From assembly GCA_017619295.1 (NCBI GenBank), contig JAFZSQ010000069.1, positions 1 to 46,309 of the forward strand: DNA of 46,309 nucleotides. Direction: 5' to 3'. The translations under genes were made by a program, and so were the position numbers. Shown here piece after piece: positions 4,706 through 46,309 of the stretch. Source of the DNA: Lachnospiraceae bacterium (GTDB lineage: Bacteria > Bacillota > Clostridia > Lachnospirales > Lachnospiraceae). The notes beneath the pieces were generated by a model that made no database searches, was not told the origin of the DNA, and saw nothing but the letters and a program-made list of their open reading frames with translations. Each line of letters begins with the position of its first letter. The first letter of the stretch is position 1.

Positions 4706-4721
4706 TTTCTCCTCATGAAAT

Positions 4722-4755
4722 CAAGCCTACCTTTGTTTACGCAAAAGTAGACTTG
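4722..4755 (-). terminator. Hairpin between udp and ppaC
   Basis: The arms 4722-4735 and 4742-4755 form a 14-bp stem in minus-strand RNA, two of the pairs being G-U, with a 6-base loop. There is no strong T run after it, and the stem ends only about 10 bases before the ppaC ribosome site. It may be a weak terminator or attenuator after udp, or a structure that tunes ppaC translation. Confidence 0.5.
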
Positions 4756-4771
4756 CTTTTGATTATTGCAT

Positions 4772-7068: not shown

Positions 7069-7072
7069 TTAT

Positions 7073-8305
7073 TTATTTCATTACATGACCCTTGTATTTT
7101 TTTACTCCCATATAAAACCATACCGGAATCTCAATTAATGCCACTGAAACAATAAGGAAAGGTGTCCATATTGCCAGATTGCCGATATTTAAAAACCTAA
7201 AGTCAATTAAATCGTAAAGGATTCCGTTGTTAAGTCCTATCCCACCGGAAGGAAACAATGCCTTTGCAACATTGGAAATGTTCTCTGGCATAAACCATCC
7301 CATGATAATGGGCATAAAACAAAGCAGAAATGATAACGCAAGAGAAACCATGGTGTTTTGCGTGACGGATGAAACAAAAAGTGTAAGGCAAACACTCGAT
7401 ATTATCATCAGAATACCGCAACCTGCCAGCATCACCAGCATATCACCGGCATTTCCTTTAAAGAGGCTGATACTGCTAAAAAGCATCTGAATCGAAGTTC
7501 CCATTCCCTCCTTGCCCCAGAACAAATAAGACAAACCAATCCATATAGTCATACATATGAAATAAAGTAAAGTACTTATAATTAAAGAAGCAAGGAATTT
7601 GTAGATCGCAAGTTCTTTTCGACCCCTTTTGGTGCATCGCAATATACTGTCGGATCCGGTTTGATATTCTAACGAAAAAACCGGAGAGCATATCAAAGTA
7701 CAGCATAACAACACCATAAGAATAAGGATTCCTTCATATTCAACTGCACTTGAGGATATTCCATAGTAATATGAAAAAGGAATATCTATCCTCCCGTATA
7801 AATCCATGGCAGCCTTTTGTGCTGCGGGGTGATTCGGCTGCTCAAGTTCCATGTTGTTCTTCAAATGTCCGACACACGCTGCATAAAAGTCCTGAATGTT
7901 TTCTACAGAAAGGGCTGCAATATCTGCTCCCAAACCATCATCGCTGCCGTAGGCTTCCTGGATTCCATGGAGAAGAGGCTTGATTTTTTCAAGCTCATAT
8001 TCCCCTTCATTCGGAAGCTCGTACATATTGTCTACACCATATTTTCTAAGTACCTCTTTGTATTGACTGATTGCCCCTCTGATATCCTCACTTGTAACTG
8101 TCCCTTCCACTTCCTTGCGAAGCTCGCGTCTGGCCTCAATAGCTTTGAAGCCCGTGAGGTAATTACCACTCTCGGGACTGTAGCAATAGGCATATGTTGC
8201 AGGAATATACGCAAGAAAAAAAGCGAAAAGCAAAGCTGCAGCAATGCAGATCTTTGGCAGCGGGCCTTTGAGAATTCTTTTTATCTCTAAATGAATTAAA
8301 CGCAT
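7073..8305 (-). CDS. ABC-2 type transporter permease
   Basis: About 410 residues. The start is set at ATG 8305 (MRLIHLEIKR) because GGAGGGG lies just before it and the upstream ATPase gene stops one base earlier. An in-frame ATG at 8326 lies inside the ATPase gene. One helix near the N-terminus (ICIAAALLFAFFLAYIPATYAY) is followed by a large, probably extracellular, domain of about 150 residues. A cluster of roughly five to six helices follows from about residue 190, typical of ABC-2/NatB-like export permeases. It works with the ATPase encoded immediately upstream. Position last in the sigma-factor operon suggests export of, or resistance to, a compound sensed at the envelope. The substrate is unknown. 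Confidence 0.82.
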   Translation of the reverse strand: MRLIHLEIKRILKGPLPKICIAAALLFAFFLAYIPATYAYCYSPESGNYLTGFKAIEARRELRKEVEGTVTSEDIRGAISQYKEVLRKYGVDNMYELPNEGEYELEKIKPLLHGIQEAYGSDDGLGADIAALSVENIQDFYAACVGHLKNNMELEQPNHPAAQKAAMDLYGRIDIPFSYYYGISSSAVEYEGILILMVLLCCTLICSPVFSLEYQTGSDSILRCTKRGRKELAIYKFLASLIISTLLYFICMTIWIGLSYLFWGKEGMGTSIQMLFSSISLFKGNAGDMLVMLAGCGILMIISSVCLTLFVSSVTQNTMVSLALSFLLCFMPIIMGWFMPENISNVAKALFPSGGIGLNNGILYDLIDFRFLNIGNLAIWTPFLIVSVALIEIPVWFYMGVKKYKGHVMK

Positions 8306-10529: not shown

Positions 10530-12731
10530 TTAATTAAATCCCATATAGAATCTTATATACTTAAGCAAATTTGCCTTCTTCAATGCAGATAACAGTTTCT
10601 GCTTTGTTAAGGCTGCTCCCTTCACTGCCCTTTCTTTCTCTATATCTCCTCTGTACAGATACTTCTCATACCCTTCGAGGAATGAGAAGTCTTCGGTTTT
10701 TTCCAAAAGAAGTCTTTCCCGATACTCATGCAAAGTCTCATTGTCTTTCATGGGATTTCCGGAAAGTCGAAGGATTCTTATGTTTTGCCTGCAAAGGCTC
10801 ACAAACTTATCCTCTTCCTTCATCTTTTCAAAACGTCTCGCCATAATCATGTTGGCAATTACATAAACCAGGGTGATAAAGACAATACCCATAACTATGG
10901 GAATCACTATGGTATACCACTTAATTCTGATAGTTACCGTATCCTCATTTTCTGGCAAAACCGAAAGATTCTCATAAGCGGAAGCATTGTACGCAGGAGT
11001 CGGTTGAACCGTCTGCGCGGGTGTTCCATCTTCCGTCACCCAGTATGAATTGTTTACGTAAGCAGGTGTGGGTTCATAGGCTACCCAGCCGGCGTTGTCG
11101 TAATAAACCTCAGGCCAAGCGTGGGCCCAGGTGGACTTCACGGTAATCTTCCTGTTTCCCTTTGGGTAGACTATATATCCCTGAGCGTATCTGGCGGGGA
11201 TTCCCTCTGCTCTGGCCAGAAGAACAAAGGCTGTGGCAAAGTGGCTGCAAAAGCCCTCCCTGCTTTCAAGCACAAAATAGTCCAGAAAATCACTCTCGTT
11301 CTTTATGCTTTCAGGCAGCGCACCCGGTGTCTCCGAGTAGGTAAAGCTTCTTAAAAGCTCTTCAAGCCTGTCTATCTTATCAACATCGCTTTCCGCCCCT
11401 CTATATACCTCATCCATGAATTCTCTCAGTTTAGGGGAGAGGACGACGGTTTTGCCATAGGTTTCTTTTATGTGGTCTACGTGGGCAAGATAATCCTCGT
11501 AGCTGCAATTGGGGATTCGGTCCGTATTTAACTGGTATTCATACTGCAGGTACCTTTCCCTTGTGGGGGCCTTCCCCGCTTTCAGGTACTCTTTAAAATC
11601 CGAGTTGCCGGTGTTAAGCCTGTAATATGAAACGGCATACTTACTCTCGTAAGCTCTGGTTTCAGGCCACAAAAGATCGCCTCCGACCTCAGAGAATTCA
11701 TCCGTGTCAAGGTCTCTGAATGTAGGCACGGACTTAAGGGGTACGAAGGGATGATTCGTTTTCATTCGAACAAATTCAACCTTCATATATGTCTTTAAGG
11801 CAAAATCTTCGGGATTCTTTGTGTAATCATTTATGGAAGCCCACATGCCAACCGTGTCCATAATTACGTCAGGAGCGGGGGAAGTGTCCTCATCCGACCA
11901 CTCTCTTCCGTCGAAACTGCTGAAGGTTTTGCCTGAAAGCTTTATCTCTCCCACAGAAGAGTTAACGTCAGATAAAATCATTACCTCTTTTTCGTTTTTC
12001 CCCGCTTCATCCGCAAGCAATCCTCTGTCAGAAAAGCCTATGAGCTTTTCTGCGGAATCTCCGGATTTACTGATTGAAAGGCGAATATCAAGCTCCTCGA
12101 TTTTATCCTTGGCCACCTGATAAATCTTTTTTGCAAAATTCCAGTCGTAGGGCTTTTTAGGTGCGGGGCTTAAAAGCACCAAAAGGAAAATAAGGAGTAT
12201 AAAAGGTGCCACGTATACCACATGTCCCTTGTGTTCCGTGTACCCTGTTTTATTCCATCTAAGCTGGGTTTCCTCGATAATGGTTAGAAGAAAAAGAAGA
12301 AGCGTTGCGGCCACAAAAATCTTTTCTGTTCTAAAGCCCATGGCTGTGCACACAATAAGCCAGCCAAGACAAGCGATACTAACCACCACCTTGGCTATTC
12401 TTATTCTGCAAATCAACTCTCCAAGAATAAAGGCAAATAGTCCCACAAAGGGAAGCCACAAATAATAGTCTTTGTCGGAGAAAAACTCATGGACAGAGTC
12501 GTTTTTGGACAGGAAAAATCCCGTGGCCAGAATCATAACAAAGACTCCGATGATTATAAGCCGTCCGCTCCATTTGCTTCGTCTGAAGGCCACAAGTATC
12601 CCTGCGATTGCCATTCCGCAAAGAATCATTAAAAAGCCTGTTTTCTCAAGGCCGTAATTCCAGGCAAGCAACGATACTCCACCCATGGCCACGGTCAAAA
12701 CATATATAAGTTCATAAAGAAGGTCTGTCAT
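10530..12731 (-). CDS. Transglutaminase-like membrane protein (DUF3488/TgpA-type)
   Basis: 733 residues. There are five to six N-terminal membrane helices (about residues 1-200) and a large extracellular transglutaminase-core domain. A further helix (IVIPIVMGIVFITLVYVIANMI, about 610-632) and a cytoplasmic DUF4129-like tail follow. The catalytic residues are visible: C495 in EGFCSHFATAF, H537 in TWAHAWPEVY, and an acid at E553 in AYEPTPAY. Glu replaces the usual Asp of the DPTP motif, as in many Gram-positive homologues. It overlaps the DUF58 gene by 4 bp, forming the common MoxR-DUF58-transglutaminase operon. The family is linked to envelope proteins and processing outside the membrane; the substrate is unknown. 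Confidence 0.9.
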   Translation of the reverse strand: MTDLLYELIYVLTVAMGGVSLLAWNYGLEKTGFLMILCGMAIAGILVAFRRSKWSGRLIIIGVFVMILATGFFLSKNDSVHEFFSDKDYYLWLPFVGLFAFILGELICRIRIAKVVVSIACLGWLIVCTAMGFRTEKIFVAATLLLFLLTIIEETQLRWNKTGYTEHKGHVVYVAPFILLIFLLVLLSPAPKKPYDWNFAKKIYQVAKDKIEELDIRLSISKSGDSAEKLIGFSDRGLLADEAGKNEKEVMILSDVNSSVGEIKLSGKTFSSFDGREWSDEDTSPAPDVIMDTVGMWASINDYTKNPEDFALKTYMKVEFVRMKTNHPFVPLKSVPTFRDLDTDEFSEVGGDLLWPETRAYESKYAVSYYRLNTGNSDFKEYLKAGKAPTRERYLQYEYQLNTDRIPNCSYEDYLAHVDHIKETYGKTVVLSPKLREFMDEVYRGAESDVDKIDRLEELLRSFTYSETPGALPESIKNESDFLDYFVLESREGFCSHFATAFVLLARAEGIPARYAQGYIVYPKGNRKITVKSTWAHAWPEVYYDNAGWVAYEPTPAYVNNSYWVTEDGTPAQTVQPTPAYNASAYENLSVLPENEDTVTIRIKWYTIVIPIVMGIVFITLVYVIANMIMARRFEKMKEEDKFVSLCRQNIRILRLSGNPMKDNETLHEYRERLLLEKTEDFSFLEGYEKYLYRGDIEKERAVKGAALTKQKLLSALKKANLLKYIRFYMGFN

Positions 12732-34277: not shown

Positions 34278-35999
34278 CTAAGGAAGCATATCAGAGTCAC
34301 CAAAGTACTCTGCCCACTTCTCTGCACGCTCATCCATAATTGCCTGGCCGCCTGCTGAGAGGTAATCAGCCATGTAGCTATCCCATACGGAATCGAAGTC
34401 TGCTTCAGAAGCTACAACTGCGTTATCGAACATCTCATCTCTCTTAGCTGTAAGAGTATCACCAACTTCTGCTTCTGCTGCGATCTCACCAACGTTAACG
34501 TTCTTAGGATACATGCCTTCTGCAAAAGCTGCCTTTGAAGCGCCGTCTACAAGCTCGGGATCCTGATCGCCGTAGCCGTATGCAAGTGAAAGAGCTGCTG
34601 TCTTCTCATCACCGTACCATGTACCGTTACATGTAAGTGTGTAGTCGATGTTCTTACCGGAGTTCTGAATAGGATCACCTGTTGCAGCAATAAGCTGGAT
34701 AGCGCCACTCTCAAGAACCTCATGTGTAACGCCTTCATCACCGGCCTGGAGGTATTTAAGGACCTCAGGGCTTGAAATGAAATCAAGATAGAGGAATGAA
34801 GCAAGAGGCTCATCGTTAGTTGAAGGGAAGAAGATCTTTCTGTCTGTTCCGAATGCGCTGTACATCCACTTGCTGTGTCCGCCGTTCTTATCCTCGAAGG
34901 GATCGATTGCTACGAACTTAGCGTCCTCACCAACGTTTCTTCTAAGGTTGGAGTTGATTGAATCTTCACCATTTCTGAATACATAGTCCCAGTTATGCTC
35001 GAAGCAGCCTACATAACCTGCTTTGATCATATCATCCTCTGTTGAATCTCCGCTGGGATAAAGAGGGAAATCTTTCCAAAGGAGGCCTTCATTATACCAC
35101 TTGTTAAGAAGCTGTACTGCCTCTTTTGTTCCGTTCTGTGTTGCGTATCTGTCATCAAAACCATTTACATAACGCTCTTTATCAGTCATCTTGGGATCCT
35201 GGAAAGAAGCAATAAGGTTGGTTGCTCTCCAGCCTACATCGTAGCTGATTGAGAAAGGAACCATCTTGGAAGCGTCTGCGCCAAGGAGTTCACTTGCGTT
35301 ATCCTTGAAAGCAACGAGCATGTCATGGAACTCCTCAGTTGTTGTAGGAGCCTTGAGGCCTAACTTGTCAAGCCAGTCCTGACGAACGAAAGTAACGCTC
35401 TTCTGTGTCTCTACACGACGACCTTCGATTGCCCAGAGGGAACCTGTCTTGGGATCCTTATCCCAGAAGATGCCTTCTTCGCCGATGAAGTCCCAAAGGT
35501 TGGGAGTTACTGACTTAAACTCTTCTGCATAATCCTTAAGATCTACGATACCGCCCATGTTAGCGTATGTAAGAACTGTAGGATAGCTGTAAGTAACGCA
35601 GATGTCAGGAGCTGATCCGCCTGCAAGAAGGTTGTTGATTTCCTCAACCTCAGTCCAACGGGGAACTGCAACGTACTCAACTTCTACGTTGTACTTATCA
35701 AGCATACCCTTCTTGATGTAATCTGTGTACATGTTGTTTGTAGGATCGGTACCACCATCGTTGTTACGATCATAAATCTCAACAGTGATGTGTCTTGTGT
35801 CGGCAAATTTGCCGTCAACGAGCTCTGCAAGAGCTCCGCTTTCTTCTACTGCCTCTTCTGCAGGAGCTGCTTCTTCTGTCTTGGTCTCAGAAGCTGTGTC
35901 AGCGGGTGCAGGTGCTGCAGTATCAGCTGAGTTACCACATGCTGCAAGAGAAATTGTCATTGCACATGCAAGTAAAACTGATAAAACTTTTTTCTTCAT
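34278..35999 (-). CDS. LplA-type substrate-binding lipoprotein
   Basis: 573 residues. Signal peptide with lipobox SLAACG (Cys near residue 21), an Ala/Glu/Thr/Pro linker, and a long family 1 binding domain of the LplA/YtcQ size class (500-570 residues), larger than MalE-like proteins. GGGAGG precedes the ATG. It serves the LplB/LplC-type permeases encoded just upstream. Proteins of this class bind complex acidic or branched oligosaccharides. In this operon, aldouronic acids (xylo-oligomers carrying methylglucuronate) are the best guess. A weak hairpin with a T-poor tail lies in the gap to the permease gene. Confidence 0.93.
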   Translation of the reverse strand: MKKKVLSVLLACAMTISLAACGNSADTAAPAPADTASETKTEEAAPAEEAVEESGALAELVDGKFADTRHITVEIYDRNNDGGTDPTNNMYTDYIKKGMLDKYNVEVEYVAVPRWTEVEEINNLLAGGSAPDICVTYSYPTVLTYANMGGIVDLKDYAEEFKSVTPNLWDFIGEEGIFWDKDPKTGSLWAIEGRRVETQKSVTFVRQDWLDKLGLKAPTTTEEFHDMLVAFKDNASELLGADASKMVPFSISYDVGWRATNLIASFQDPKMTDKERYVNGFDDRYATQNGTKEAVQLLNKWYNEGLLWKDFPLYPSGDSTEDDMIKAGYVGCFEHNWDYVFRNGEDSINSNLRRNVGEDAKFVAIDPFEDKNGGHSKWMYSAFGTDRKIFFPSTNDEPLASFLYLDFISSPEVLKYLQAGDEGVTHEVLESGAIQLIAATGDPIQNSGKNIDYTLTCNGTWYGDEKTAALSLAYGYGDQDPELVDGASKAAFAEGMYPKNVNVGEIAAEAEVGDTLTAKRDEMFDNAVVASEADFDSVWDSYMADYLSAGGQAIMDERAEKWAEYFGDSDMLP

Positions 36000-36041
36000 T
36001 TCATACCTCCCATTTGATAATATGATTAGTTTTTTATCTGA

Positions 36042-36059
36042 ACTTTCTTAATTGAAAGT
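36042..36059 (-). promoter_or_regulatory. Small hairpin between permease and binding-protein genes
   Basis: A 6-bp stem (36042-36047 with 36054-36059) and 6-base loop lie 12 bases after the permease stop, followed at a distance by an A-rich run and one short T run. It is probably too weak to terminate and may mark an mRNA processing site. Confidence 0.35.
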
Positions 36060-36070
36060 ATCATTTGATG

Positions 36071-36955
36071 TTATTCCTTAACTGCTCCAAGGGTTACTCC
36101 GTGAATGAAGTATTTCTGGAGGAAAGGATAGATACAAAGGATAGGAATCGTTGAGAACATTACCGTTGCCGCTTTCAGTGAATCGGAAAGTCCGGGTGTC
36201 GAGAATCCTTCCTGTGTTGCAACTTCTACTGAGTTAATATTGTTCAGTATGTTGTAAATAAGAAGCTGCAGGGGATAATACTTTTTGTCCTTCATGTACA
36301 TCAACGCATCGTAGTATCCGTTCCATCGCCCTACTGCGTAGAACAGGGCAAGTGTAGCCATAACGGGCTTTGACAGAGGAACATATATTACCCACAGAAT
36401 CCTGAAGAAACTTGCTCCGTCAATCTCTGCGGATTCTCTTAAGGAATCCGGGATGCCGTAGAAGAAGCTTCTCATGATAATCATGTTGTAGACGCTTAAG
36501 CATCCGGGAACTATAAGTACCAAAGGATTATCAAGCAGGTGCAGCTTCTGCATTAACAGATAGTTGGGAATTGTTCCTGCGTTGAAGAACATTGTTATTG
36601 TTATTAAGATGTTGATAAAGTGACGTCCTTTGAGCTTCTCAAAAATCAAAGGATAAGCACAAAGGGTTGTCATTGTTAAGGACAGGATTGTGCATACACC
36701 TGTCAAAAATGCTGTCCAGAAGAAGGATCTTAAGTACTTGGGATCCTTAAGTACGGTCTTATAAGCTTCAAAGTTAAGTCCCTTGGGAAGGAGATATACT
36801 TCATGCTTAATAAGAAATTCCGTGGAGGAAAGGGATCTTGCCAACAGGTTAAACATTGGCAGCAAACACATAATTGCTACGATTGCACATATTATTACGA
36901 ATCCCCAGTCACCGATACGTGATTTGGTGGAATGTATCATTCTGTTCTCTTCCAT
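36071..36955 (-). CDS. Carbohydrate ABC transporter permease (LplC/YtcP type)
   Basis: About 294 residues. The start is placed at ATG 36955, the second of two adjacent ATGs, 6 bases after a GGAGG that follows the LplB stop. The open frame to 37012 overlaps LplB and lacks a ribosome site. Six membrane helices, the first at FVIICAIVAIMCLLPMFNLL. The EAA loop reads ESAEIDGASFFRILWVIYVP, typical of LplC proteins. It forms the channel with the LplB-type permease. The ATPase is supplied from elsewhere. Confidence 0.92.
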   Translation of the reverse strand: MEENRMIHSTKSRIGDWGFVIICAIVAIMCLLPMFNLLARSLSSTEFLIKHEVYLLPKGLNFEAYKTVLKDPKYLRSFFWTAFLTGVCTILSLTMTTLCAYPLIFEKLKGRHFINILITITMFFNAGTIPNYLLMQKLHLLDNPLVLIVPGCLSVYNMIIMRSFFYGIPDSLRESAEIDGASFFRILWVIYVPLSKPVMATLALFYAVGRWNGYYDALMYMKDKKYYPLQLLIYNILNNINSVEVATQEGFSTPGLSDSLKAATVMFSTIPILCIYPFLQKYFIHGVTLGAVKE

Positions 36956-36965
36956 CATGCACCTC

Positions 36966-37913
36966 CTACCAAATACCACGCTCGCCCAACTTACGCGACA
37001 AGAAGTTCGCACTAAGCAGGAAGAATACGTTTACTAATGACTGGAAAAGTCCAACCGCCGTAGTTAAGGAGAACTGAAGTCCCTTAATTCCGACTTTATA
37101 TACATAGGTCGCAAGAACCTCTGCTGCATCCATAACCAGTTTGTTCTGCATTGCGAAGGGTCTGTCGAATCCGGATCCGATGATGTTACCTAAAGCCATG
37201 ATTAGAAGAACAACGATTGTGGGTTTGATTCCGGGTAATGTAATATGCCACATCTTCTGGAATCTTCCGGCACCATCAACGCTTGCCGCCTCATAAAGTT
37301 CAGGTGATACGCCTGCAATGGCTGCCAGGTATATAATGGAGTTCCATCCGAAGCTCTGCCAGATACCAAGTCCTATATAGGTCTTAACCCATGTAGCGGA
37401 ACTATTGAGGAAAGGTACTGACTCTAATCCCATCTTGTTTAAGAGAAGGTTTACGAAGCCGGTTGAAGGAGCAAAAAGCTGTAATGCCAAACCATAAATG
37501 ATGACCCAAGAAAGGAAGTGGGGCATGTAAGTGATGGTCTGAACCGTCTTCTTGAATCTCTTAAGTCTCAGCTCATTGAGTATCAGAGCAAATATGATAG
37601 GTACCGGGAATCCAAAGATAAGGTCTTTCAGATTCAGGGTAATGGTGTTTTTTAAGGCTCTTAAAAAGTCGTTGGACTTAAATGCCTTTATGAAATACTC
37701 AAAGCCGTGGTTCTTGGCCCAGGGCATTTCCCAGATACTCTGTACGATACTGTATTTCTTAAAAGCGATCATTACGTACCACATAGGTAAGTACTTAAAA
37801 ACGATCAAATACAGTAAAGGCAGAAACAGCAGTGCATACAACTGCCAGTATCTCTTTAAATAGACTTTGTTGAGCGGGGCCTTCGCCCCTTTTACAGCTT
37901 TCTCTTTAGCCAA
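36966..37913 (-). CDS. Carbohydrate ABC transporter permease (LplB/YteP type)
   Basis: 315 residues with six membrane helices, beginning YWQLYALLFLPLLYLIVFKY, a typical LplB opening. EAA loop EAASVDGAGRFQKMWHITLP. The start has AAGGAG upstream and follows the GntR stop by 12 bases, so regulator and importer are in one transcript. By family and context it imports aldouronic acids for intracellular digestion by the GH67, esterase and GH3 enzymes of the same operon. Confidence 0.94.
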   Translation of the reverse strand: MAKEKAVKGAKAPLNKVYLKRYWQLYALLFLPLLYLIVFKYLPMWYVMIAFKKYSIVQSIWEMPWAKNHGFEYFIKAFKSNDFLRALKNTITLNLKDLIFGFPVPIIFALILNELRLKRFKKTVQTITYMPHFLSWVIIYGLALQLFAPSTGFVNLLLNKMGLESVPFLNSSATWVKTYIGLGIWQSFGWNSIIYLAAIAGVSPELYEAASVDGAGRFQKMWHITLPGIKPTIVVLLIMALGNIIGSGFDRPFAMQNKLVMDAAEVLATYVYKVGIKGLQFSLTTAVGLFQSLVNVFFLLSANFLSRKLGERGIW

Positions 37914-37925
37914 TTTCGTTTCTCC

Positions 37926-38600
37926 TTACTTAAAGTACTCAGGGTGTTCCTGTCTCATCTGAGCTTCATCAAGCTTATATCTTCCCAAATGCTTCTCAAC
38001 CAGGAAAACAGCAGTTTCCTTATCTCCTGCTTTGATAGCCTCAAGCATTTCCCTGTGATCTTTGACTATCTTTAAGTCCTTAACCGTCTCCACCGAAAGA
38101 GTTCTGACTCTGTCGAAATGAAGCATCATGGTTGAGCTCATATCGTAGGTTGTCTCTTTCCCGGCTGCCTTGTAAATCAGGTAGTGGAACTGGTTATCTA
38201 ACATATATATTCTGTCCGCATCTTCCTTCTCAAGGTAGAATTCCTGAAGATGGACGTTCTCTTCTATCTCGTCTATAACATCCTTTGGAGCTATCTCGCA
38301 GGCAAGCTCGATAACTGCCTTATCAAGAATCTTTCTTACGAATCTTGATTCCTCAACCATGCTGGGATCTATCAGCGAAACATATGAACCTCTTTGAGGT
38401 AAAATCTCAATTATCCCCGCTTTAGCCAGGTCGATGATTGCCTCTCTTACCGGCGTTCTGCTGACACCGAATTCCATTGCCATTTCATTCTCTGAAATCA
38501 GTGTTCCCGGCTTTAAATCAAGTGAAACTATGTTATCTCTAAGTACTCTAAATGCAAAATCTCTGGCTGTTTCTCGCGGTAGTCTTTCGGAAGTGTGCAT
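37926..38600 (-). CDS. GntR-family regulator (FadR/UxuR-like)
   Basis: 224 residues. The N-terminal winged helix is of the GntR type (LISENEMAMEFGVSRTPVRE), and the C-terminal all-helical FCD domain carries likely metal or ligand His residues (DNQFHYLIYKAAG; KDHREMLEAIKAG; VEKHLGRY). Members of this group that lie next to uxu genes sense hexuronates or their breakdown products. As the first gene of the operon, with a candidate operator over its own promoter, it probably represses the whole 13-kb unit until glucuronate or fructuronate appears. The ligand is inferred from context. Confidence 0.92.
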   Translation of the reverse strand: MHTSERLPRETARDFAFRVLRDNIVSLDLKPGTLISENEMAMEFGVSRTPVREAIIDLAKAGIIEILPQRGSYVSLIDPSMVEESRFVRKILDKAVIELACEIAPKDVIDEIEENVHLQEFYLEKEDADRIYMLDNQFHYLIYKAAGKETTYDMSSTMMLHFDRVRTLSVETVKDLKIVKDHREMLEAIKAGDKETAVFLVEKHLGRYKLDEAQMRQEHPEYFK

Positions 38601-38658
38601 TCTGTCTACTCTTTCAATCTTTTATGGCGATTTTGTTAAATATTTATCGCTTGTCTAC

Positions 38659-38668
38659 TTGTATACTA
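38659..38668. promoter_or_regulatory. Candidate GntR operator
   Basis: TTGTATACTA fits the FadR-subfamily consensus TnGT-(N)-ACnA as a near-palindrome. It lies just downstream of the predicted transcription start of the GntR operon, where binding would repress. Confidence 0.45.
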
Positions 38669-38683
38669 GTCTTTCTATGTAAA

Positions 38684-38712
38684 AATCTACCACTAACATG
38701 TTAATCTGTAAA
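38684..38712 (-). promoter_or_regulatory. Candidate promoter of the glucuronoxylan operon
   Basis: On the minus strand TTTACA (-35, 38707-38712) and TAGATT (-10, 38684-38689) are 17 bases apart, about 85 bases before the GntR start. The gene-free stretch 38601-38944 holds this promoter, the operator, the repeat hairpin at 38751 and the hairpin at 38859. I see no further gene in it. Confidence 0.5.
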
Positions 38713-38750
38713 GGGTTGTTTTGGCATATTGCCCAAAAACGAGCAAAATA

Positions 38751-38805
38751 AAAACGGGAAACGTCCCGTGGTTTGGGCGTTTCCCGTCAACTAACATTTT
38801 TTTAT
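38751..38805 (-). repeat. Island-flanking repeat, copy A (terminator hairpin)
   Basis: The first 12 and last 28 bases are identical to copy B at 44695-44748, in the same orientation; only the 12-base loop differs. On the minus strand it folds as a 10-bp stem (ACGGGAAACG with its complement) followed by TTTTTATTTT, a good intrinsic terminator. It closes the island on the side of the GntR operon. Confidence 0.85.
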
Positions 38806-38858
38806 GCAAATATAATCTTGTCTTGTCTAAACATTTCTTAATGTCTATGTATTATTAA

Positions 38859-38890
38859 GAAACGAGCAGATTAAATACTCTACTCGTTTC
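38859..38890 (-). terminator. Hairpin after the precursor peptide gene
   Basis: Arms 38859-38866 (GAAACGAG) and 38883-38890 (CTCGTTTC) pair perfectly around a 16-base loop, 55 bases beyond the precursor stop. The following sequence is TTAATAATA rather than a pure T run, so it may slow or protect the transcript before the stronger terminator at 38751. Confidence 0.5.
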
Positions 38891-38944
38891 CAGTTGCACC
38901 TATATTAATCATATCTATTAGTTCTTTTCTATGTTCTTATTATC

Positions 38945-39127
38945 TTACGGATTTCCACAGTACGGATATCCTGTTGATGTTGTTCCCGAATTGATAGGTG
39001 TTGTTCCTTTGCAACACATAGTAATAACAGCTATGTTATGTCCTTGAGTCTCATCTCCTCCTATCCCATTTATTAATTCGTTATCATTTTCATTATTGCT
39101 CCATAATGCCTCGCTTAAAGTAATCAT
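38945..39127 (-). CDS. Putative RiPP precursor peptide (60 aa)
   Basis: 60 residues, preceded by an excellent GGGAGG ribosome site 6 bases from the ATG, better than those of its island neighbours. The first part is acidic and polar with a WSNNENDNELING stretch and a double glycine at G23-G24, like a leader. The tail is compact and polar with C38, C39 and C57, several Thr/Ser/Gly, and ends GYPYCGNP. It lies 60 bases after a metalloprotease gene, in a cluster with a radical SAM/SPASM enzyme and an ABC exporter, which is the classical setting of a modified peptide. A TATAAA at 39148-39153 could be an internal -10 but has no good -35. It matches no precursor family I recognise. Thioether links from Cys are the most likely change, with epimerisation possible. 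Confidence 0.72.
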   Translation of the reverse strand: MITLSEALWSNNENDNELINGIGGDETQGHNIAVITMCCKGTTPINSGTTSTGYPYCGNP

Positions 39128-39187
39128 TTCCTTCCTCCCTATTCAACTTTATAAGTATGATTAATAAGATGCACGTATCTTTATAAA

Positions 39188-40675
39188 TTATTGGAAGGTC
39201 TCTTCCCACTCTGGAAGCAGTGCATCAATTGCTTTTCTTTGCTCCGATTCTTCCAGCCCAGCTAGTTCAATCATTTTTTTTACTGAATATCTATTAATGA
39301 CAAATGCTACAAAATCAGAACACTCTTCATAAGTCCACTCCTCAGTCTTATCGTTTAACGGGCGGCATACTTTTTCTTTTACTTCGCAATTTTGTAGAAT
39401 CATATGAGTAATCCTTTCAATATCTAACTCATTTTCCGAGTTAATCGATTTAATTCCTATCTCATCTCCTATCGGAGCATAATATGAATCCTCTTGGTTT
39501 AGCCAATCATAAAACATTTCCTTTATTTTGTGATTATACTTGTAGGTTCCCAAGTACTCCGCCATACCCTCTTTTAGTTCTATACTGTCACCTGCAAAGC
39601 ATGGATTAAAAAGTATATGCACATATTCGTGCGGAAGAGTATTCCACTGTAGCAATACTATTGTTTCGCTTTCTGGTTGCACAAAACTTGTCCTATATTT
39701 TTCAGCGCCAACCTTATGACAAGCTATTTTTTTTTGCATGAACTGCTCTATTTCATTAACGTTGTTATTAATAAAAAAATCTTGTATTCCCTCAATGTCT
39801 TCGCTGATATTTGACAAATATCTCTCCATATCGTTAATATCTTTTACAAATGTTCCGGAATACGGATCTCCTGCAATATCCATTACAATATTCTCGATAA
39901 TTATATAATTAAGACCGCCCGTTTCACTATTAGCAATATATTTTACCTTGTCATAAAGTGAATATTCATATTGATATTCTAAGTCAAGGCTTTTTAGCCA
40001 TTCGTTAATAATATGATTTTTATTCTCTGTTATTTCTTGTGATGAAGAATAACATTTCCCTTTTGCATACTTCACAATTGCTTTAGCAGTTTCTCTAACC
40101 ATCTCGCAATCATCATTACTCTGAAATATATCAAAAAACCTAGCGCCCGAAAGATTTAACTGTTTGCAATTATCCTCTTTTCTGTAGTATTCGGCTAAGT
40201 CGTCAATCTGTTCTTCTCCGGAGGCCGCCATTCCATATGCCACCCAGTAATCACAGTTCGACATCCAATATATCAGGTTCGTTTTTGTGTATGTGATTTC
40301 GCCCAATAATATTTGGTCAAGCGGAATCACAAGAATATTTGAATCAAAAAGCGCAAAATTTTCATTCGTCGGATTATGCAAAAAAAACAACTCATAATCT
40401 CCCTTATCGCTTTCAATTTGTGCTTCAGACATGCACTCGTCCACAAATCTGCTTACCTGTAAAGCCTCTTCTTCATTTAATGATTCAATATGTATTCTTC
40501 CATAAGGTTTTTCACATGTTAGCATCTCAAACTGTCTCGAAATAATATTGTCTCTCTTATGGGTTTCCTTAACAAACGATTCTTTTGAGCACCCTGTTAA
40601 AAAAGCCAAGCATGTAAACAAAAATACATAAAGAATAACTTGCTTATATCCTTCTGTTTTAATTTTGATTTTCAT
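39188..40675 (-). CDS. Lipoprotein with zincin metalloprotease motif
   Basis: 495 residues. Signal peptide with lipobox FLTGC (C29), so it is anchored outside the cell. The C-terminal third contains LPHEYVHILF with the zinc site H349-E350-x-x-H353, and 16 residues later KEGMAEYLG supplies E369 as third ligand, the gluzincin pattern. The N-terminal 300 residues show no known domain; the region EAEQ-like helices and several Cys are not diagnostic. In its place between exporter and precursor it could remove the leader after export or destroy the peptide for self-protection. It starts 9 bases after the ABC gene stop. Family name unknown to me. Confidence 0.72.
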   Translation of the reverse strand: MKIKIKTEGYKQVILYVFLFTCLAFLTGCSKESFVKETHKRDNIISRQFEMLTCEKPYGRIHIESLNEEEALQVSRFVDECMSEAQIESDKGDYELFFLHNPTNENFALFDSNILVIPLDQILLGEITYTKTNLIYWMSNCDYWVAYGMAASGEEQIDDLAEYYRKEDNCKQLNLSGARFFDIFQSNDDCEMVRETAKAIVKYAKGKCYSSSQEITENKNHIINEWLKSLDLEYQYEYSLYDKVKYIANSETGGLNYIIIENIVMDIAGDPYSGTFVKDINDMERYLSNISEDIEGIQDFFINNNVNEIEQFMQKKIACHKVGAEKYRTSFVQPESETIVLLQWNTLPHEYVHILFNPCFAGDSIELKEGMAEYLGTYKYNHKIKEMFYDWLNQEDSYYAPIGDEIGIKSINSENELDIERITHMILQNCEVKEKVCRPLNDKTEEWTYEECSDFVAFVINRYSVKKMIELAGLEESEQRKAIDALLPEWEETFQ

Positions 40676-40684
40676 TAGTCTAGC

Positions 40685-42337
40685 TTACCTACCTAAATAT
40701 GTTGTATTATAATCTTTCTCGTTAAACCCATAATGGGTTGTTACTATATTTATTTTTTTAGCACTCAAGTTTTCAATTATCTTTTCAATTGTAATCTGTG
40801 TTTTGCTATCTAGATTATTTAACGGTTCGTCCCAAAAAAAGACCCTGGATTTCTTCAGTAATATCCTGCATATCGCGACTTTTTGGCTTTGCCCACTTGA
40901 CAATTTTACATCCTGGTTAACCAGAGAAGACAATCCATTTTTATAATGTTGTACATCGTCCCAAAGTCCAACTTCTCTGAGTAACTCTTCAATTTCATGT
41001 TCTGTGGCATCCGGAGAAAATAATCTAATATTATCAAGTAGTGACATACTGTACATTTGTGGGTTTGATACTAAAAATGAAATACAATTGGAGAGAATAT
41101 ACTTCTTTTTTTCATCCAATTCTTCATTGTCAAATAAAACCCTTCCATTTGATATGTTTTCCTGTCCGGATAAAGAATTCAGTAAAGTAGTCTTTCCTGA
41201 TCCATTTTCTCCTCTGATAATATAAGGCTTGCCGTAGTTTGTATATCTTTTCGAAAAACAATTTAAAATTATATTTTTTCCTTTGATTACAATAATGTCT
41301 TCTGCTTCTATTAATCTAATCCCTTTTTTCTCAAATGGTGATTCACCACTTTTTTCTTCTCCAATTACTAATACTTGGCATAACCTTTTAACGTTTATTT
41401 GGTATTGCTTTATACGTCCCAGGCCATCAAACACAGCGCTTACATTACCCGATAGAGTTTTGCTGTACATGATACATGCAAACATTATGCCAATCGAAAT
41501 CTCTCCTCTGATAACTTCCATTCCCCCAAGTAACAGAATAAAAAAATAAGTAACGAATCCTATTGAAGAAATAACTGTCTGATAAAAGTATCTTTTCTCC
41601 TCGTTTTCAATGGTTTTGTCCTTTATTTCTTCCATTCTTTTTTCTAAGAATTTCCCTAAAATATAGGATCCTCCATTGCACCTGAGCTCATTTAATCCTT
41701 TTGCGATTTCTGTAATTAAGTCAAAGAAGTAATCATTCTTTTTTATGATTTCCTCTTGAATACATCTGATTTTTCTTAAAAGACTATTCGAAAATAAATA
41801 GGATAACGGAATTGCTAGTGTTGCAAAAATAGCGATAACTTTATTTGTTGTTACCAAGAAAATTTCCGCAACAATTATATAAATAATCATCTGAACGAAA
41901 TTAATAAACTCAAAAATATAGTCCGTATATCGGTTTGAATCATCATTAAATACAGTGAGAAGTTGTCCCGTTGTTATATCACTCTTTTTCCATTCAACTT
42001 CAGATATTTTTGAAATGTATAAATATAACCTGCTTTTTATGCGTATTCTAATGTCTTTTTCGGTTTTTAGTTTGATTTTCATTAAACAGTATCCTGTTAG
42101 CTTGTTAGCCATAAAACAAAAAACTGTCAAAAGAGCACATCTCATTAATTCTTCTATGTCTTTCTGAGATAGAGCATCTATCAGCTTATATGACAAATAT
42201 ATGTTTTGTATTGTAAATAAAGCTACTGTCCCAGATAGAATTGAATAGTTCAGGAGTGCTATCTCATAACCTTTAAAGATATTAGATAAAATAGTTTTAT
42301 TATTAAATTTAGTATCCGTTTTGTAAATCTTGCTCAT
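40685..42337 (-). CDS. ABC exporter, fused membrane and ATPase domains
   Basis: 550 residues. N-terminal membrane domain of about six helices (roughly residues 25-300), then an ATPase domain with Walker A GENGSGKTT (376-384), signature LSSGQ (479-483, Ser in place of Gly), Walker B RVFFWDE (D503, E504) and D loop NNLD. There is no N-terminal C39 peptidase, so it cannot cut a double-glycine leader itself. It likely acts as a homodimer exporting the modified peptide. It overlaps the radical SAM gene by 29 bp with GGAAAA as a weak ribosome site. The final switch His is present in VTTHYGF. Confidence 0.88.
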   Translation of the reverse strand: MSKIYKTDTKFNNKTILSNIFKGYEIALLNYSILSGTVALFTIQNIYLSYKLIDALSQKDIEELMRCALLTVFCFMANKLTGYCLMKIKLKTEKDIRIRIKSRLYLYISKISEVEWKKSDITTGQLLTVFNDDSNRYTDYIFEFINFVQMIIYIIVAEIFLVTTNKVIAIFATLAIPLSYLFSNSLLRKIRCIQEEIIKKNDYFFDLITEIAKGLNELRCNGGSYILGKFLEKRMEEIKDKTIENEEKRYFYQTVISSIGFVTYFFILLLGGMEVIRGEISIGIMFACIMYSKTLSGNVSAVFDGLGRIKQYQINVKRLCQVLVIGEEKSGESPFEKKGIRLIEAEDIIVIKGKNIILNCFSKRYTNYGKPYIIRGENGSGKTTLLNSLSGQENISNGRVLFDNEELDEKKKYILSNCISFLVSNPQMYSMSLLDNIRLFSPDATEHEIEELLREVGLWDDVQHYKNGLSSLVNQDVKLSSGQSQKVAICRILLKKSRVFFWDEPLNNLDSKTQITIEKIIENLSAKKINIVTTHYGFNEKDYNTTYLGR

Positions 42338-43616
42338 TATTTTCCAGTAAATACGGCAACAGTTTTTCTTGTGTATATTTCATCTTTTTACAATTTGGTT
42401 GGTAAATATCCTTTCCATGTAGCGCCAACTCAAGTGGACACCCTCCTCCGCATATCAGTGCTTTATTACAGTTTTTACAGGCTTGTATTTTACTAATACT
42501 TCTTGTATAAATGCTTTTTTTGTACATATTATATTTGGGATAATATGTTCCAATAACTGTCTTTTTATTACCTACACCTATTATGCAGCTGTAAATATCC
42601 CCCTCCGAATCAAATATCAAATTTTCTCCATGAGCTATACAATGTTTTACTATTGGATAAAATTTCTCTTTTCCAATAACATAATTGACAATCGGTAAAT
42701 CTGTTAACACATGGTAGTTTTCCCTATCTCCCTTCCGTGAAGATGCATATATGTCTTCATAAACTGCTTCTGTTAGTCTGTCAAAATCAGATCCATCAAT
42801 TTGAAACAGGGGACTAAGTTCGAAGAATAGAAACTCTTTGTACTCCCTATATTTTTCTTTAAGTAAATCTCTTACTTCAATGCAACTTCTATAGTTTTGA
42901 ATTGTAAGATTCATTCTCACCTTAATTCTAAGTCCATTCTTTAATGCCTTACCTATTCCAGACATGATTTTATTATAAGTAGGGGCTCCTCCTTTTAAAA
43001 TTCTTGTTTGATTGTGGTTCTCTTGATTTCCATCAACCGTTATTTGTATGTAGCCAATTTTTAACTTACACAGTAATGGTAAAAACTCTTCCAGATAGTA
43101 TCCGTTGCTTACTATGGAATATGTCTTATCGGGGTATCTTGTTCCAATGTATTCAATAATATCGCGAGTCTCGGGGAGCAATGGTTCTCCTCCAAATAAT
43201 GTGAAACAATCTGTTCTGTCATTACAGATGTCCATTATCCTGTCTATTTGGCTTTTTGATATTACTTTTAATAATTTGTTTTCATTTGCGCCCTCATAAC
43301 AATATGGACAGCTAAAATTACACGAATACGTTAAAACAATTATCGCGGAATTCTTAGTTGCTTGACTTAACATTACTTTTTTTATAAGCTCATCTTTCAT
43401 TCTATGTTCTTCATCATCAGACTGAACCACAAAGCCAAGCCTTTTTAGTTCCAATAGCACGGATGAACCGTTTTCGTCTTCGAAAAATGATTTTTGTTGT
43501 TTTTTAATATAATCAAATTCTTCTTGATTAACCTTTATCATGGCCCCATTTAAAGTGTTAATAAGCAAAAAATAATTCCCCCATTTTACTGGGACAATGC
43601 TGTCAATCACCTTCAT
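42309..43616 (-). CDS. Radical SAM/SPASM peptide-modifying enzyme
   Basis: 435 residues from the ATG at 43616, with GGGGG 9 bases upstream. A TTG at 43622 also opens the frame. The radical SAM cluster motif is CNFSCPYC (C99, C103, C106), with FGGEPLL as the glycine-rich SAM-contact motif. The C-terminal SPASM domain shows seven Cys (about 326, 344, 380, 383, 389, 393, 409, in CKNCNKALICGGGCP and nearby) that would hold two auxiliary Fe-S clusters. The first 90 residues (VKWGNYFLLINTLNGAMIKV) look like the peptide-recognition region of such maturases. It should modify the precursor at 38945. Its reaction (thioether, C-C bond or other) cannot be read from sequence. Confidence 0.92.
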   Translation of the reverse strand: MKVIDSIVPVKWGNYFLLINTLNGAMIKVNQEEFDYIKKQQKSFFEDENGSSVLLELKRLGFVVQSDDEEHRMKDELIKKVMLSQATKNSAIIVLTYSCNFSCPYCYEGANENKLLKVISKSQIDRIMDICNDRTDCFTLFGGEPLLPETRDIIEYIGTRYPDKTYSIVSNGYYLEEFLPLLCKLKIGYIQITVDGNQENHNQTRILKGGAPTYNKIMSGIGKALKNGLRIKVRMNLTIQNYRSCIEVRDLLKEKYREYKEFLFFELSPLFQIDGSDFDRLTEAVYEDIYASSRKGDRENYHVLTDLPIVNYVIGKEKFYPIVKHCIAHGENLIFDSEGDIYSCIIGVGNKKTVIGTYYPKYNMYKKSIYTRSISKIQACKNCNKALICGGGCPLELALHGKDIYQPNCKKMKYTQEKLLPYLLENNEQDLQNGY

Positions 43617-44493
43617 CCCCAATAACCCCCTTTAAAAGACTGATATCTTTCTCTGTAACTCTATCTAAAGATTTGATTAAAACTTGATGCATTATTTTTT
43701 TCGTGAACTTATCTCTTTTTATGTTTTTCTGTTTTAATTTTTCAACAAAATCCAAGTTTCTGCTTATAATCCATTTCGCCCCTTTGTTTATCTCTAAGCA
43801 AAGGCTAATAACGTTGTTGATGAATTCGTTAACGTCGCTAAAAATGCATTCGTTCTCATCGACTATAAAACTTGTATTCTGAGACAGCCAAGTTGCTATA
43901 TCCTCATTATAAAAAGAAATTCTTATTTTCTTATTTGGTACACTCCGAATCAAACCTCTTTCCTTTATTATTTCATCTAATAATGATATTTCGTTTACGA
44001 AATAATCTGATTTTTCCGTCTTTGAAATAAAGTAAGGGACTTGCAACTCCGCGCATTCATCCTCAATTCCCGTCGCACCTACCACCGCGCTTACAGGTAT
44101 GTTATGCTCCCAGAGCCACGTTATAAATGTAGTAATCTCGCCAGCTTTTTTATCACCTATTTTTAATTCTTTTATTTCTCCCTTGAATGTATGTGTCAAA
44201 ATACCCTTGGCACCTTCCATACCGTGAAATCCTATTAAAATCGCAAAATCATATTTTGCTGTAATATCAAGACTACCAATACCAGCCTTATACACACGCC
44301 TGTCAACATTAGCGGTTCTTACATAATCTCCGTCATTGTGTATATCACAAATAATAGAGTTGAAACCCATTTGTGCAAACCATTCGTATACTGATTTTAA
44401 GACATTCAAATATTCAGTTCCTTGTTTCGTATAATTAGACATCGAAATGCAAGAAATTCCCTCTAAATCTGACAATACGAGCACTCTACACAT
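43603..44493 (-). CDS. M55 D-aminopeptidase-like metalloenzyme (DppA family)
   Basis: 296 residues. All M55 metal and catalytic residues known from DppA have counterparts: D9 and E11 in SDLEGISCI, H52 in CDIHNDGD, H90 in GFHGMEG, H101 in LTHTF, and E119 in KAGEITTF. Family members cleave short peptides with an N-terminal D-amino acid, using two zinc ions. There is no signal peptide, so it is cytoplasmic. It is the first gene of the island operon and overlaps the radical SAM gene. No clear ribosome site precedes the ATG, but the metal ligands at residues 9 and 11 fix the start. Presence in a peptide-modifying cluster hints at D-residues in the product or its breakdown. Confidence 0.9.
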   Translation of the reverse strand: MCRVLVLSDLEGISCISMSNYTKQGTEYLNVLKSVYEWFAQMGFNSIICDIHNDGDYVRTANVDRRVYKAGIGSLDITAKYDFAILIGFHGMEGAKGILTHTFKGEIKELKIGDKKAGEITTFITWLWEHNIPVSAVVGATGIEDECAELQVPYFISKTEKSDYFVNEISLLDEIIKERGLIRSVPNKKIRISFYNEDIATWLSQNTSFIVDENECIFSDVNEFINNVISLCLEINKGAKWIISRNLDFVEKLKQKNIKRDKFTKKIMHQVLIKSLDRVTEKDISLLKGVIGDEGD

Positions 44494-44694
44494 TTTATTC
44501 TTTGAAATAATTGGATTTGTTCACCAATGCTTTATGAAAATAGTAACTTTGGGAAATGATTTAGATCTCCATCTGATATAAAGAATAGATAGAATTAGAA
44601 CCTCTTTCCCCCCTCGTTTTTTATTTTATCAGCACCTCTCATACAGTGTCAATTTATAGATTTTTTCTTCTATTCAAGACAAAGCCATAAACAA

Positions 44695-44748
44695 AAAACG
44701 GGAAACACCACATATAATGGGCGTTTCCCGTCAACTAACATTTTTTAT
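44695..44748 (-). repeat. Island-flanking repeat, copy B (terminator hairpin)
   Basis: This direct copy of the element at 38751 has a 9-bp perfect stem (ACGGGAAAC with its complement) and TTTTTT next to it on the minus strand. It starts 10 bases past the stop of the deacetylase gene and is probably its terminator. The 12-base loop differs from copy A, but both keep extra inner CC/GG pairs. The rest of the gap 44494-44694 is AT-rich and shows no gene or clear promoter. Confidence 0.85.
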
Positions 44749-44757
44749 CAAGTGTCT

Positions 44758-45597
44758 TTACAGTTTTATAGTTCCTCCGGCTTTTACGAAATACGGTTTC
44801 TCATCATATTCAAACCAGATATCCGTTGCTGTAGGGTTCTTACAGGTTGTCATGTCTGTGTTAAATCTGAGTTCATTGAATGCATGAACATAATCAAACA
44901 CTTCTATGTTGGTTGCATACCAGATATCATCTTTGCCTGAAACCTTCTTGGCAAACTCCTCAATGACGTTCCAGTTGTCATGCTCCTCAAATTCATATGA
45001 ATGACCCCAAAGATAAAACATCCAGGGACATCCGCAGGGATGACAGGTATTTACAAATTTATCCGCAAGTTCCATAAGACGGGGATTATCATGATGGCAG
45101 GTTGCCTCAAGTCTCAGCCAGTCCTTTGGAAGATCGAAATTCTCCGATGAGATAATTGTTCTGCAGTAAGCGATTCCGCAGGCCTTTAACGCATCCACAA
45201 CCTCATCGTTATACGTTCCGTATGGATAAGCCATGCCTCTGATAATCTGGTTAAACTGTCTTTCCAGAGTCATTCTGTCCTGTAACACTTCGTAGGTTGC
45301 TCTGTTAATAGGAAGCTGCTCAAGGAAGGGATGTGTGTAGCCGTGTACCGCTACCTCCATTCCGTTCTGAACATAGAGTTTATCTATTTTACTCTTGGGC
45401 ATTCTTCTGTGAATCTGCCCTGCAGGATAAACTGTTCCCTCTTCGGCATAAACACCGCTGTTTAAGTTAAAGGTTCCCTTGAGCCCATACTTAACCATGA
45501 GGTCCACAAGCTTTTCGTCCTGCTCTACTCCGTCATCGTAGCTTAATGTAAGTGTCTTAATCTTCCCACCGGGAAAGCGCAAGAATAAATTTGCCAT
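44758..45597 (-). CDS. Polysaccharide deacetylase (CE4/NodB-like), cytoplasmic
   Basis: 279 residues. NodB-type motifs: TLSYDDG with the catalytic and metal Asp pair (about residue 20-22), VHGYTHP with the two metal His, and GMAYPYGTYND. The later GHSYEFEE supplies a likely catalytic His. It has no signal peptide, in contrast to cell-wall deacetylases of this family. It may remove acetyl groups from imported oligosaccharides together with the GH4 enzyme upstream, whose stop lies 17 bases before its ATG. An alternative is a sugar-modifying housekeeping role. A GGAG ribosome site precedes the ATG. It is followed by repeat B. Confidence 0.88.
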   Translation of the reverse strand: MANLFLRFPGGKIKTLTLSYDDGVEQDEKLVDLMVKYGLKGTFNLNSGVYAEEGTVYPAGQIHRRMPKSKIDKLYVQNGMEVAVHGYTHPFLEQLPINRATYEVLQDRMTLERQFNQIIRGMAYPYGTYNDEVVDALKACGIAYCRTIISSENFDLPKDWLRLEATCHHDNPRLMELADKFVNTCHPCGCPWMFYLWGHSYEFEEHDNWNVIEEFAKKVSGKDDIWYATNIEVFDYVHAFNELRFNTDMTTCKNPTATDIWFEYDEKPYFVKAGGTIKL

Positions 45598-45614
45598 GAT
45601 ACTCCTCCCTTGTC

Positions 45615-46309
45615 TCAGTTAGCCTCCCAGCCTTTTGGAAGGTACTTCTTTGTTGATTCTATCATATCGTCCACAAGTTTGGAAATCTCTTCTTTTGTTG
45701 CTCTTCCTTTTACCAGAGGATCGTTTTCGAAAGCCTCTCTTACCAGTTCTTTGTCAAATGTGAATGATGCTTCAATTACTCTCTCGTGGTTTTTAACATG
45801 AGGAATAATCAATTCATATATATTCTTAGGAAGAGGACCGGCGCTTACAGGCCTTATGGAATCTCTTTCAAATACAGCGTTGGTTTCCACAACTGCTGTT
45901 TTTGGAAGATTGGGAATCTGTCCTGCGGTATTTGGAATATTTACATTGCTTATGACTCTTTCTAAGCCGCACAATGCCTTAATAAGAAGTATTCCCTCTT
46001 CTCCCGTAGGTTTAAGTTCAATCTCCTCCTCAAAGGAAGCAAGTCTAGAGGAACGAGCCAGTCTGTCCTCAAGATCCTTCTTTCTCCACTCGACACTGGT
46101 GAGAGCAAAGTCCCAGCTTTCAACCGTTTCAGGATCTTTAAGATAGGTGTCCCCGGGCATAAACTCAGCAAGGTGTCTGTCTCCTGCTGCCGCAATGAGT
46201 CCATACTTATTAAACAGGTCAAACTTAACTCTGTGTTTGCAGACAAAGCATTTATTTGCCCAGTGCTCGGAGTCACCGCCTTCCCAGCCTCTTTCAAAGT
46301 TATTGTCAA
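45615..46309 (-). CDS. GH4 family alpha-glycosidase/alpha-galacturonidase (5' end outside window)
   Basis: Only the C-terminal 231 or so residues are in the window; the frame is open to the right edge. Visible GH4 features are CFVCKHRVKFDLFNKYG, AAGDRHLAEFMPG and ALCGLERVISNVNIPN. These match the LplD-type branch of the NAD- and manganese-dependent family 4 glycosidases, which includes alpha-galacturonidases. The visible Cys and His may be metal ligands. It is cytoplasmic. Together with the CE4 gene it makes another oligosaccharide-processing unit. A 115-residue frame over the same bases is a shadow. Confidence 0.88.
   Translation of the reverse strand, partial: DNNFERGWEGGDSEHWANKCFVCKHRVKFDLFNKYGLIAAAGDRHLAEFMPGDTYLKDPETVESWDFALTSVEWRKKDLEDRLARSSRLASFEEEIELKPTGEEGILLIKALCGLERVISNVNIPNTAGQIPNLPKTAVVETNAVFERDSIRPVSAGPLPKNIYELIIPHVKNHERVIEASFTFDKELVREAFENDPLVKGRATKEEISKLVDDMIESTKKYLPKGWEAN

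Follow-up and report, generated by a model that had tools for sequence, protein, structure and literature searches.

Sactipeptide and ranthipeptide clusters combine a radical S-adenosylmethionine (SAM) enzyme with a SPASM domain, a Cys-containing peptide and an ATP-binding cassette (ABC) exporter. The same three components lie in a ~6-kb, low-GC, foreign-looking block (the island) on a 46,309-nt stretch of Lachnospiraceae bacterium DNA (GenBank assembly GCA_017619295.1, contig JAFZSQ010000069.1, positions 1 to 46,309; the whole stretch is called the window below). The island differs from these clusters in that its exporter lacks a C39 peptidase domain, and in the addition of an M55 peptidase and a zinc lipoprotein (the zincin). 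We think it fairly likely that the island is a radical SAM cassette for a ribosomally synthesised and post-translationally modified peptide (RiPP), probably acquired horizontally, which supplies a precursor, a maturase, export and two accessory peptidases.

Among described maturases, those of the Clo7bot (TIGR04334), PapB, CefB (NF038107) and TIGR04463 families gave long profile matches to the island enzyme, and they too have a small Cys-containing peptide nearby. Together with the geopeptide family, these RiPP maturases were its best NCBIfam matches. All scores, however, were far below cut-off (Clo7bot 118.7 against 600, PapB 106.4 against 340, CefB 102.5 against 600 and TIGR04463 92.7 against 525 bits), and the enzyme falls in a clade of its own whose peptides share a Trp followed by a Cys pair (W...CC). 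The papers listed for these family names were unrelated. In the open-access papers searched we found none pairing ‘radical SAM’ with ‘D-aminopeptidase’, a search whose scope excludes preprints, subscription papers and those worded only as ‘radical S-adenosylmethionine’. In PMC10352776, all but two members of a nine-cluster subset of Bacteroidales RiPP loci have a C39 transporter. The island exporter, in contrast, matched only ABC_membrane (PF00664), ABC_tran (PF00005) and, on the ATPase, AAA_21 above the Pfam cut-offs; as Pfam found no C39 peptidase domain, it is not a C39 (PCAT) exporter. In PADLOC its ATPase matched fragments of models.

Gene content and borders of the island

The open reading frame (ORF) list places five minus-strand genes at 38,945-44,493, transcribed in the order M55 peptidase, radical SAM/SPASM enzyme, ABC exporter, HExxH lipoprotein and 60-aa peptide. 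The features of the island, from its upstream end, are as follows.

44689-44746 (29-bp identical core 44718-44746), minus strand: right repeat copy; its sequence reads as an intrinsic terminator, that of the deacetylase operon upstream (hairpin GGGAAAC...GTTTCCC, then a T-run, by eye)
44623-44652, minus strand: promoter-like site within the island, TTGACA-18-TAAAAT (11/12), with TG before the second hexamer (motif scan)
43603-44493, minus strand: divergent M55 (DppA-like) D-aminopeptidase, 296 aa (Pfam PF04951; D, E, H, H, H and E at the six key positions)
42309-43616 (listed ORF from TTG 43622), minus strand: putative radical SAM/SPASM peptide maturase (PF04055; CxxxCxxC and SPASM-like Cys pattern by eye; tree)
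40685-42337, minus strand: ABC exporter of 550 aa, membrane domain fused to ATPase, without C39 (PF00664 and PF00005)
39188-40675, minus strand: lipoprotein with LTGC lipobox and gluzincin-like HEYVH...EGMAEY, 495 aa (motifs by eye and alignment)
39134-39139, minus strand: Shine-Dalgarno sequence GGGAGG of the peptide gene (sequence)
38945-39127, minus strand: precursor-peptide candidate, 60 aa, with W9, CC at 38-39 and Cys 57 (ORF list)
38745-38802 (29-bp core 38774-38802), minus strand: left repeat copy; terminator after the island operon (repeat comparison and terminator scan)

The genes are tightly packed. Counted from the likely radical SAM start, an ATG at 43616 that is preceded by GGGG, the M55 and radical SAM genes overlap by 14 nt. 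The radical SAM and exporter genes overlap by 29 nt, the exporter and zincin genes are 9 nt apart, and the peptide gene follows the zincin gene after 60 nt with a GGGAGG of its own ahead of the ATG. ORFs and Pfam thus bear out an earlier, sequence-only reading of this DNA, which had described five minus-strand genes in series, overlapping or nearly so and ending in a 60-residue Cys-containing peptide. The promoter-like site is weak evidence, because such sites were about as numerous in the region (32) as in shuffled sequence (30.8).

A 58-bp direct repeat frames the island (38745-38802 and 44689-44746); its copies are 83% alike and share 29 identical bp, and the outer boundaries drawn in the sequence-only reading (38751 and 44748) lie no more than 6 nt from it. 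Each copy reads as an intrinsic terminator for minus-strand transcription, of which the terminator scan listed the left one only. With up to 2 mismatches, the 21-bp repeat centre occurred at just these two places in its own genome (a draft of 2.75 Mb, 95.8% complete); with up to 3 mismatches it was found in none of 100 shuffles of the window, and viral contigs held no exact match. Composition changes within the same borders. GC content is 32.7% between the repeats and 43.5% in the remaining window, where the lowest of 658 stretches of the same size (all drawn from the part of the window left of the island) reached 41.6%. GC at third codon positions is 0.26-0.32 in the five island genes and 0.43-0.52 in four neighbours.

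The genus comparison comprised two genomes, the source and G250 (Lachnospiraceae bacterium G11, FMWZ01000011.1; exact over two 200-base stretches of the zincin locus). G11 contig C15 carries counterparts of both flanks, the left one (window 34300-38805) at 94% and the right one (44694-46301) at 84%; these overlap in a single 56-bp repeat copy, and the island is absent. It is therefore present or absent as one unit across the two genomes. As in a mobile genomic island, direct repeats flank it, its composition is foreign and a relative has an empty site. By this comparison the block would have entered, or been lost, at an intrinsic terminator, leaving one terminator on each side.

Two genomes alone fit either direction, and we favour gain in the source because the base composition differs. 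Were the island ancestral, its loss from G11 through repeat recombination would leave exactly the single repeat seen there, and an insertion could also be an artefact of assembly, as the source is a draft of 99 contigs and the genus is represented by two genomes. Both accounts seem improbable. The GC content, overall and at third positions, is sharply unlike that of the flanks; the joints have only the 29-bp exact core in common, between flanks 94% and 84% identical to G11, and an assembler error would need two crossings. We conclude that the island was probably acquired horizontally.

The space between the repeats is taken up by the five genes, none of which matched an integrase or transposase family (ORFs and Pfam); Rfam at gathering scores found no RNA element in the window. 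A phage origin was rejected, as peptide patterns from the radical SAM enzyme, zincin and M55 peptidase gave no relative in viral contigs, where a two-row radical SAM profile (A2) gave 11 weak matches of 22-48% identity over parts. A plasmid origin was rejected likewise: plasmids gave no match to the island DNA, the zincin or the peptide. The M55 search hit one plasmid, from Embleya, at 23% identity, and the radical SAM search 67 plasmid records, all below 60% identity and the best 15 at 30% or less; the best of these, from Muribaculaceae, carries a different gene set by eye.

The radical SAM enzyme and its candidate precursor

The radical SAM enzyme matched PF04055 (68.9 bits, E 8e-19), and by eye has the cysteines CNFSCPYC and C...GDIYSC...CKNCNKALICGGGC...C, which are invariant in the aligned clade. 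It thus has the CxxxCxxC motif and SPASM cysteines of radical SAM RiPP enzymes generally. SkfB (6efn; E 3.7e-7) was its only sequence match in the PDB at E ≤ 0.001. Its core (residues 94-244) also matched pVip (58.3 bits, in a library without a cut-off); a viperin-type defence role seems unlikely, since pVip was matched by the core alone. NCBIfam viperin reached 50.2 bits against a cut-off of 180.

We searched for relatives in the family (8/299 genomes with matches at 1e-20), class (14/391 at 1e-22) and phylum (17/227 at 1e-45), the source genome being counted in each, and in the order of genome G794 (2/158 at 1e-50). Neighbourhoods were inspected for all 11 family places outside the source, for 11 of the 17 class places (all but those in G688, G914, three in G659, and G794:C10), for both from G794's order, and for 13 of the 16 other phylum genomes (all but G1199, G1197 and G1118); some stretches end at contig ends (L028, L090, L116). 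Three relatives, in G794, G1010 and G1169, were clearly nearer than the others (36-37% identity), and in a tree of 38 sequences they formed one clade with the island enzyme (100/100). The second radical SAM match in the source genome was weak (25%), and G11 has one at 27% beside a gene like those of the major facilitator superfamily.

In each of the three closest relatives the radical SAM gene is preceded by a gene for a 39-42-aa peptide, which has a ribosome-binding site. All three peptides end in ...CCAC, with the Trp at position 11 and the Cys pair at 36, 39 and 36; the island peptide, for which Pfam and NCBIfam list no family, has its Trp at 9, its Cys pair at 38-39 and a third Cys at 57. 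With its GGGAGG and this shared W...CC layout, the adjacent 60-aa ORF is a candidate precursor. The pairing of the clade with W...CC peptides is good evidence that the radical SAM enzyme acts on it; leader similarity is weak by itself. The same pairing supports the label ‘RiPP-type’ given to the island in the sequence-only reading. The enzyme also did not group with non-peptide maturases, an outcome that reading had named as one that would speak against it: its strongest NCBIfam hits were to RiPP maturases, and the tree agrees. Together these comparisons place the enzyme with the peptide maturases.

Several observations weigh against the RiPP-cassette reading. The peptide gene comes at the end of the operon, with 60 nt between it and the zincin gene, whereas in the three relatives the peptide precedes the radical SAM gene, and when aligned the island peptide is only 22-24% identical to two of the relatives' peptides. 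The leader motif EAxW is common to two of the three relatives; the third reads KTGW, which weakened EAxW as a signature, and we therefore used the W...CC layout instead. A three-of-four match, as scored against the first two leaders, arose in 3.6% of shuffles of the island peptide (EAxW within the first 15 residues in 0.045%), which makes homology of the leaders suggestive but unproven. Pfam found no PqqD-like domain, and with it no RiPP recognition element, in the island; cryptic elements of this type occur in many radical SAM enzymes. The AlphaFold model of the zincin (pLDDT 36.5) was useless. Finally, M55 and zincin profiles run on ORFs of at least 60 aa in the 33 neighbourhoods of radical SAM relatives found neither (0/33), while the window control was found; the only zincin match there, at chance level, was a short ORF (E 0.012).

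The position of the peptide gene at the end of the operon is unusual and its similarity to the relatives' peptides weak, as would be expected if the 60-aa ORF were not a precursor and the enzyme modified another peptide or a protein, or if the cluster had decayed. We regard this as quite unlikely. The ribosome-binding site of the peptide gene is strong, its W...CC layout matches all three closest relatives, the four large ORFs are intact, and by eye there is no alternative candidate ORF upstream of the M55 gene.

The absence of M55 and zincin genes from the 33 neighbourhoods leaves the five-gene set unmatched within the searched data. The prediction that the set recurs elsewhere is so far unsupported: a single-protein search with the island M55 at 1e-8 matched one of 299 family genomes, the source itself, and the zincin relatives had no radical SAM or M55 match in the surroundings inspected. 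The sequence-only reading had inferred one biosynthesis and export system, a view backed by the layout of the operon and the borders of the island, and not by recurrence of the five genes. It had also failed to match a D-aminopeptidase and a surface metalloprotease in one such cluster to a characterised class, and neither lies beside the radical SAM relatives in those neighbourhoods. The combination thus appears to be a known kind of RiPP cluster with unusual accessory peptidases not found beside the relatives examined.

The neighbourhoods held further peptides. At least one short same-strand ORF with two or more Cys and a ribosome-binding site, the latter loosely defined, lay near 31 of 37 relatives; the count had no random control, and some of these ORFs are plainly spurious. 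L069 and L120, outside the clade, also have Trp and a Cys pair in short peptides; in L069 two CCDQ-repeat peptides with a Trp-containing leader (4135-4317 and 4634-4786) lie between two radical SAM genes. An AQCCSK...GCHD peptide is conserved by eye in 8 of the 12 members of one neighbouring radical SAM group. In L068, L076, L113, L115-L118 and L122 such peptides, of 34-43 aa, lie upstream of the radical SAM gene, often with methyltransferase- or thioredoxin-like genes (by eye), and the group may be TIGR04463.

Pairs of a radical SAM enzyme and a W...CCAC peptide occur in L067 (7315-9076), L090 (7103-8882) and L111 (7582-9278). Their enzymes are nearly identical (end branches 0.06-0.11) and the pairs span three families, one of them outside the class of the others, which looks like recent horizontal spread. 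In L067 (G794) a NAL1/trypsin-like protease gene (6143-7189; matches below cut-off) directly follows the radical SAM gene and might be the protease of that cluster.

The two accessory peptidases

The M55 protein scored 54.1 bits against PF04951 (cut-off 25) and keeps all six positions, a D-x-E-G motif and H, H, H and E, which correspond to metal ligands or active-site residues of DppA. Among seven canonical M55 proteins, five of the six positions were present in 7/7 and the His after G-F/Y in 6/7 (L097 departs). In these respects the island protein is like DppA. It differs in matching 1hi9 at an E of only 0.11, in scoring 29.4 bits against the 430 of NCBIfam NF058634, and in covering only profile positions 2-166 of 264. 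As a single-protein query at 1e-8 it had no match in the 298 other family genomes, a search that would miss ordinary M55 proteins.

M55 genes do occur apart from radical SAM genes: 4 of 23 other genomes searched held seven, on contigs other than those with radical SAM matches. This, and their absence from the 33 neighbourhoods, would suit a passenger gene that serves ordinary turnover of D-peptides (cell wall) and has nothing to do with the peptide. Such a passenger is possible but doubtful. The M55 gene opens the operon, with its end overlapping the radical SAM gene, and its product, the only M55 found in this genome, has diverged strongly (52 bits, where the seven others score 270-339), as a specialised enzyme would be expected to. 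The sole chemical reason to link a radical SAM enzyme to a D-aminopeptidase comes from the review PMC8326336, according to which sactisynthases and radical SAM epimerases both attack the alpha carbon.

The zincin matched no Pfam or NCBIfam family above cut-off, and no family is listed for it in PDB sequences, PADLOC or PHROGs; four relatives likewise have no Pfam family. Relatives, the island protein included, were found in 2/250 family genomes with the single protein and in 4/344 order genomes with a two-row profile. The lipobox Cys and HExxH occur in all five members compared, four of which have E and one D as the third acidic residue. The other four, L003 8998-10470 (G11), L034 6475-8109, L035 5686-7245 and L036 6340-7947, are similar in length to the island zincin and form with it an undescribed lipoprotein family of 490-545 aa.

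Where these relatives stand bears on what the zincin does. G11, which lacks the island, has an orphan lipoprotein 36-37% identical to it among MerR-, GNAT- and methyltransferase-like genes (by eye); more distant relatives stand alone (two copies in G024) or beside genes like those of non-ribosomal peptide synthetases (G451/L034, by eye). None of these surroundings gave a radical SAM or M55 match (L003 by eye), and the closest radical SAM-peptide pairs have no zincin in the inspected stretches. The zincin could well be a resistance or immunity protease merely carried with the RiPP genes, and not a maturation enzyme, except that the cassette would then have no leader protease, its exporter being without C39.

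Proposed pathway, setting and significance

If the island is the RiPP cassette that we propose, the 60-aa peptide would be the precursor, its N-terminal part (the Trp-9 region) the leader; the core would run from about residue 30 and include the Cys pair and the C-terminal Cys. Bound through its leader, the precursor would be cross-linked in the core by the radical SAM/SPASM enzyme, most likely through Cys as a thioether, and sent out by the C39-less ABC exporter. Outside, the membrane-anchored zinc lipoprotein may remove the leader, or destroy returning product in self-protection; in the cytoplasm, the M55 peptidase may trim or disarm peptides whose N-terminal residue is D-configured or inverted. 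We infer these roles for both peptidases.

A bolder version would make the island a new class of RiPP. Its radical SAM enzyme would leave residues in the D configuration (epimerised or inverted) in a peptide with a Cys pair, at the future N-terminus or near it; a dedicated and highly diverged M55 peptidase would trim or disarm the peptide in the cytoplasm, the membrane-anchored zincin, of an undescribed family, would process or destroy it outside, and the whole circuit would move as a unit into intrinsic terminators. We consider this a long shot.

The island is set in a plant-polysaccharide locus (GH67, UxuA, GH3, mannitol dehydrogenase-type and sugar ABC transporter genes). A 573-aa protein (window 34278-35999), encoded between the genes for sugar ABC permeases and for mannonate dehydratase, has no Pfam match at 1e-5 and is perhaps a lipoprotein solute-binding protein. 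Also outside the island, a 733-aa protein (window 10530-12731) has a transglutaminase-like core.

The comparison defines a small candidate W...CC precursor family together with its maturase clade, and the source and G11 make a natural filled/empty pair of sister species. If the pathway is as proposed, it would connect the chemistry of radical SAM enzymes on peptides with an aminopeptidase specific for D-residues, and the unnamed lipoprotein protease family may serve self-protection or resistance among gut bacteria.

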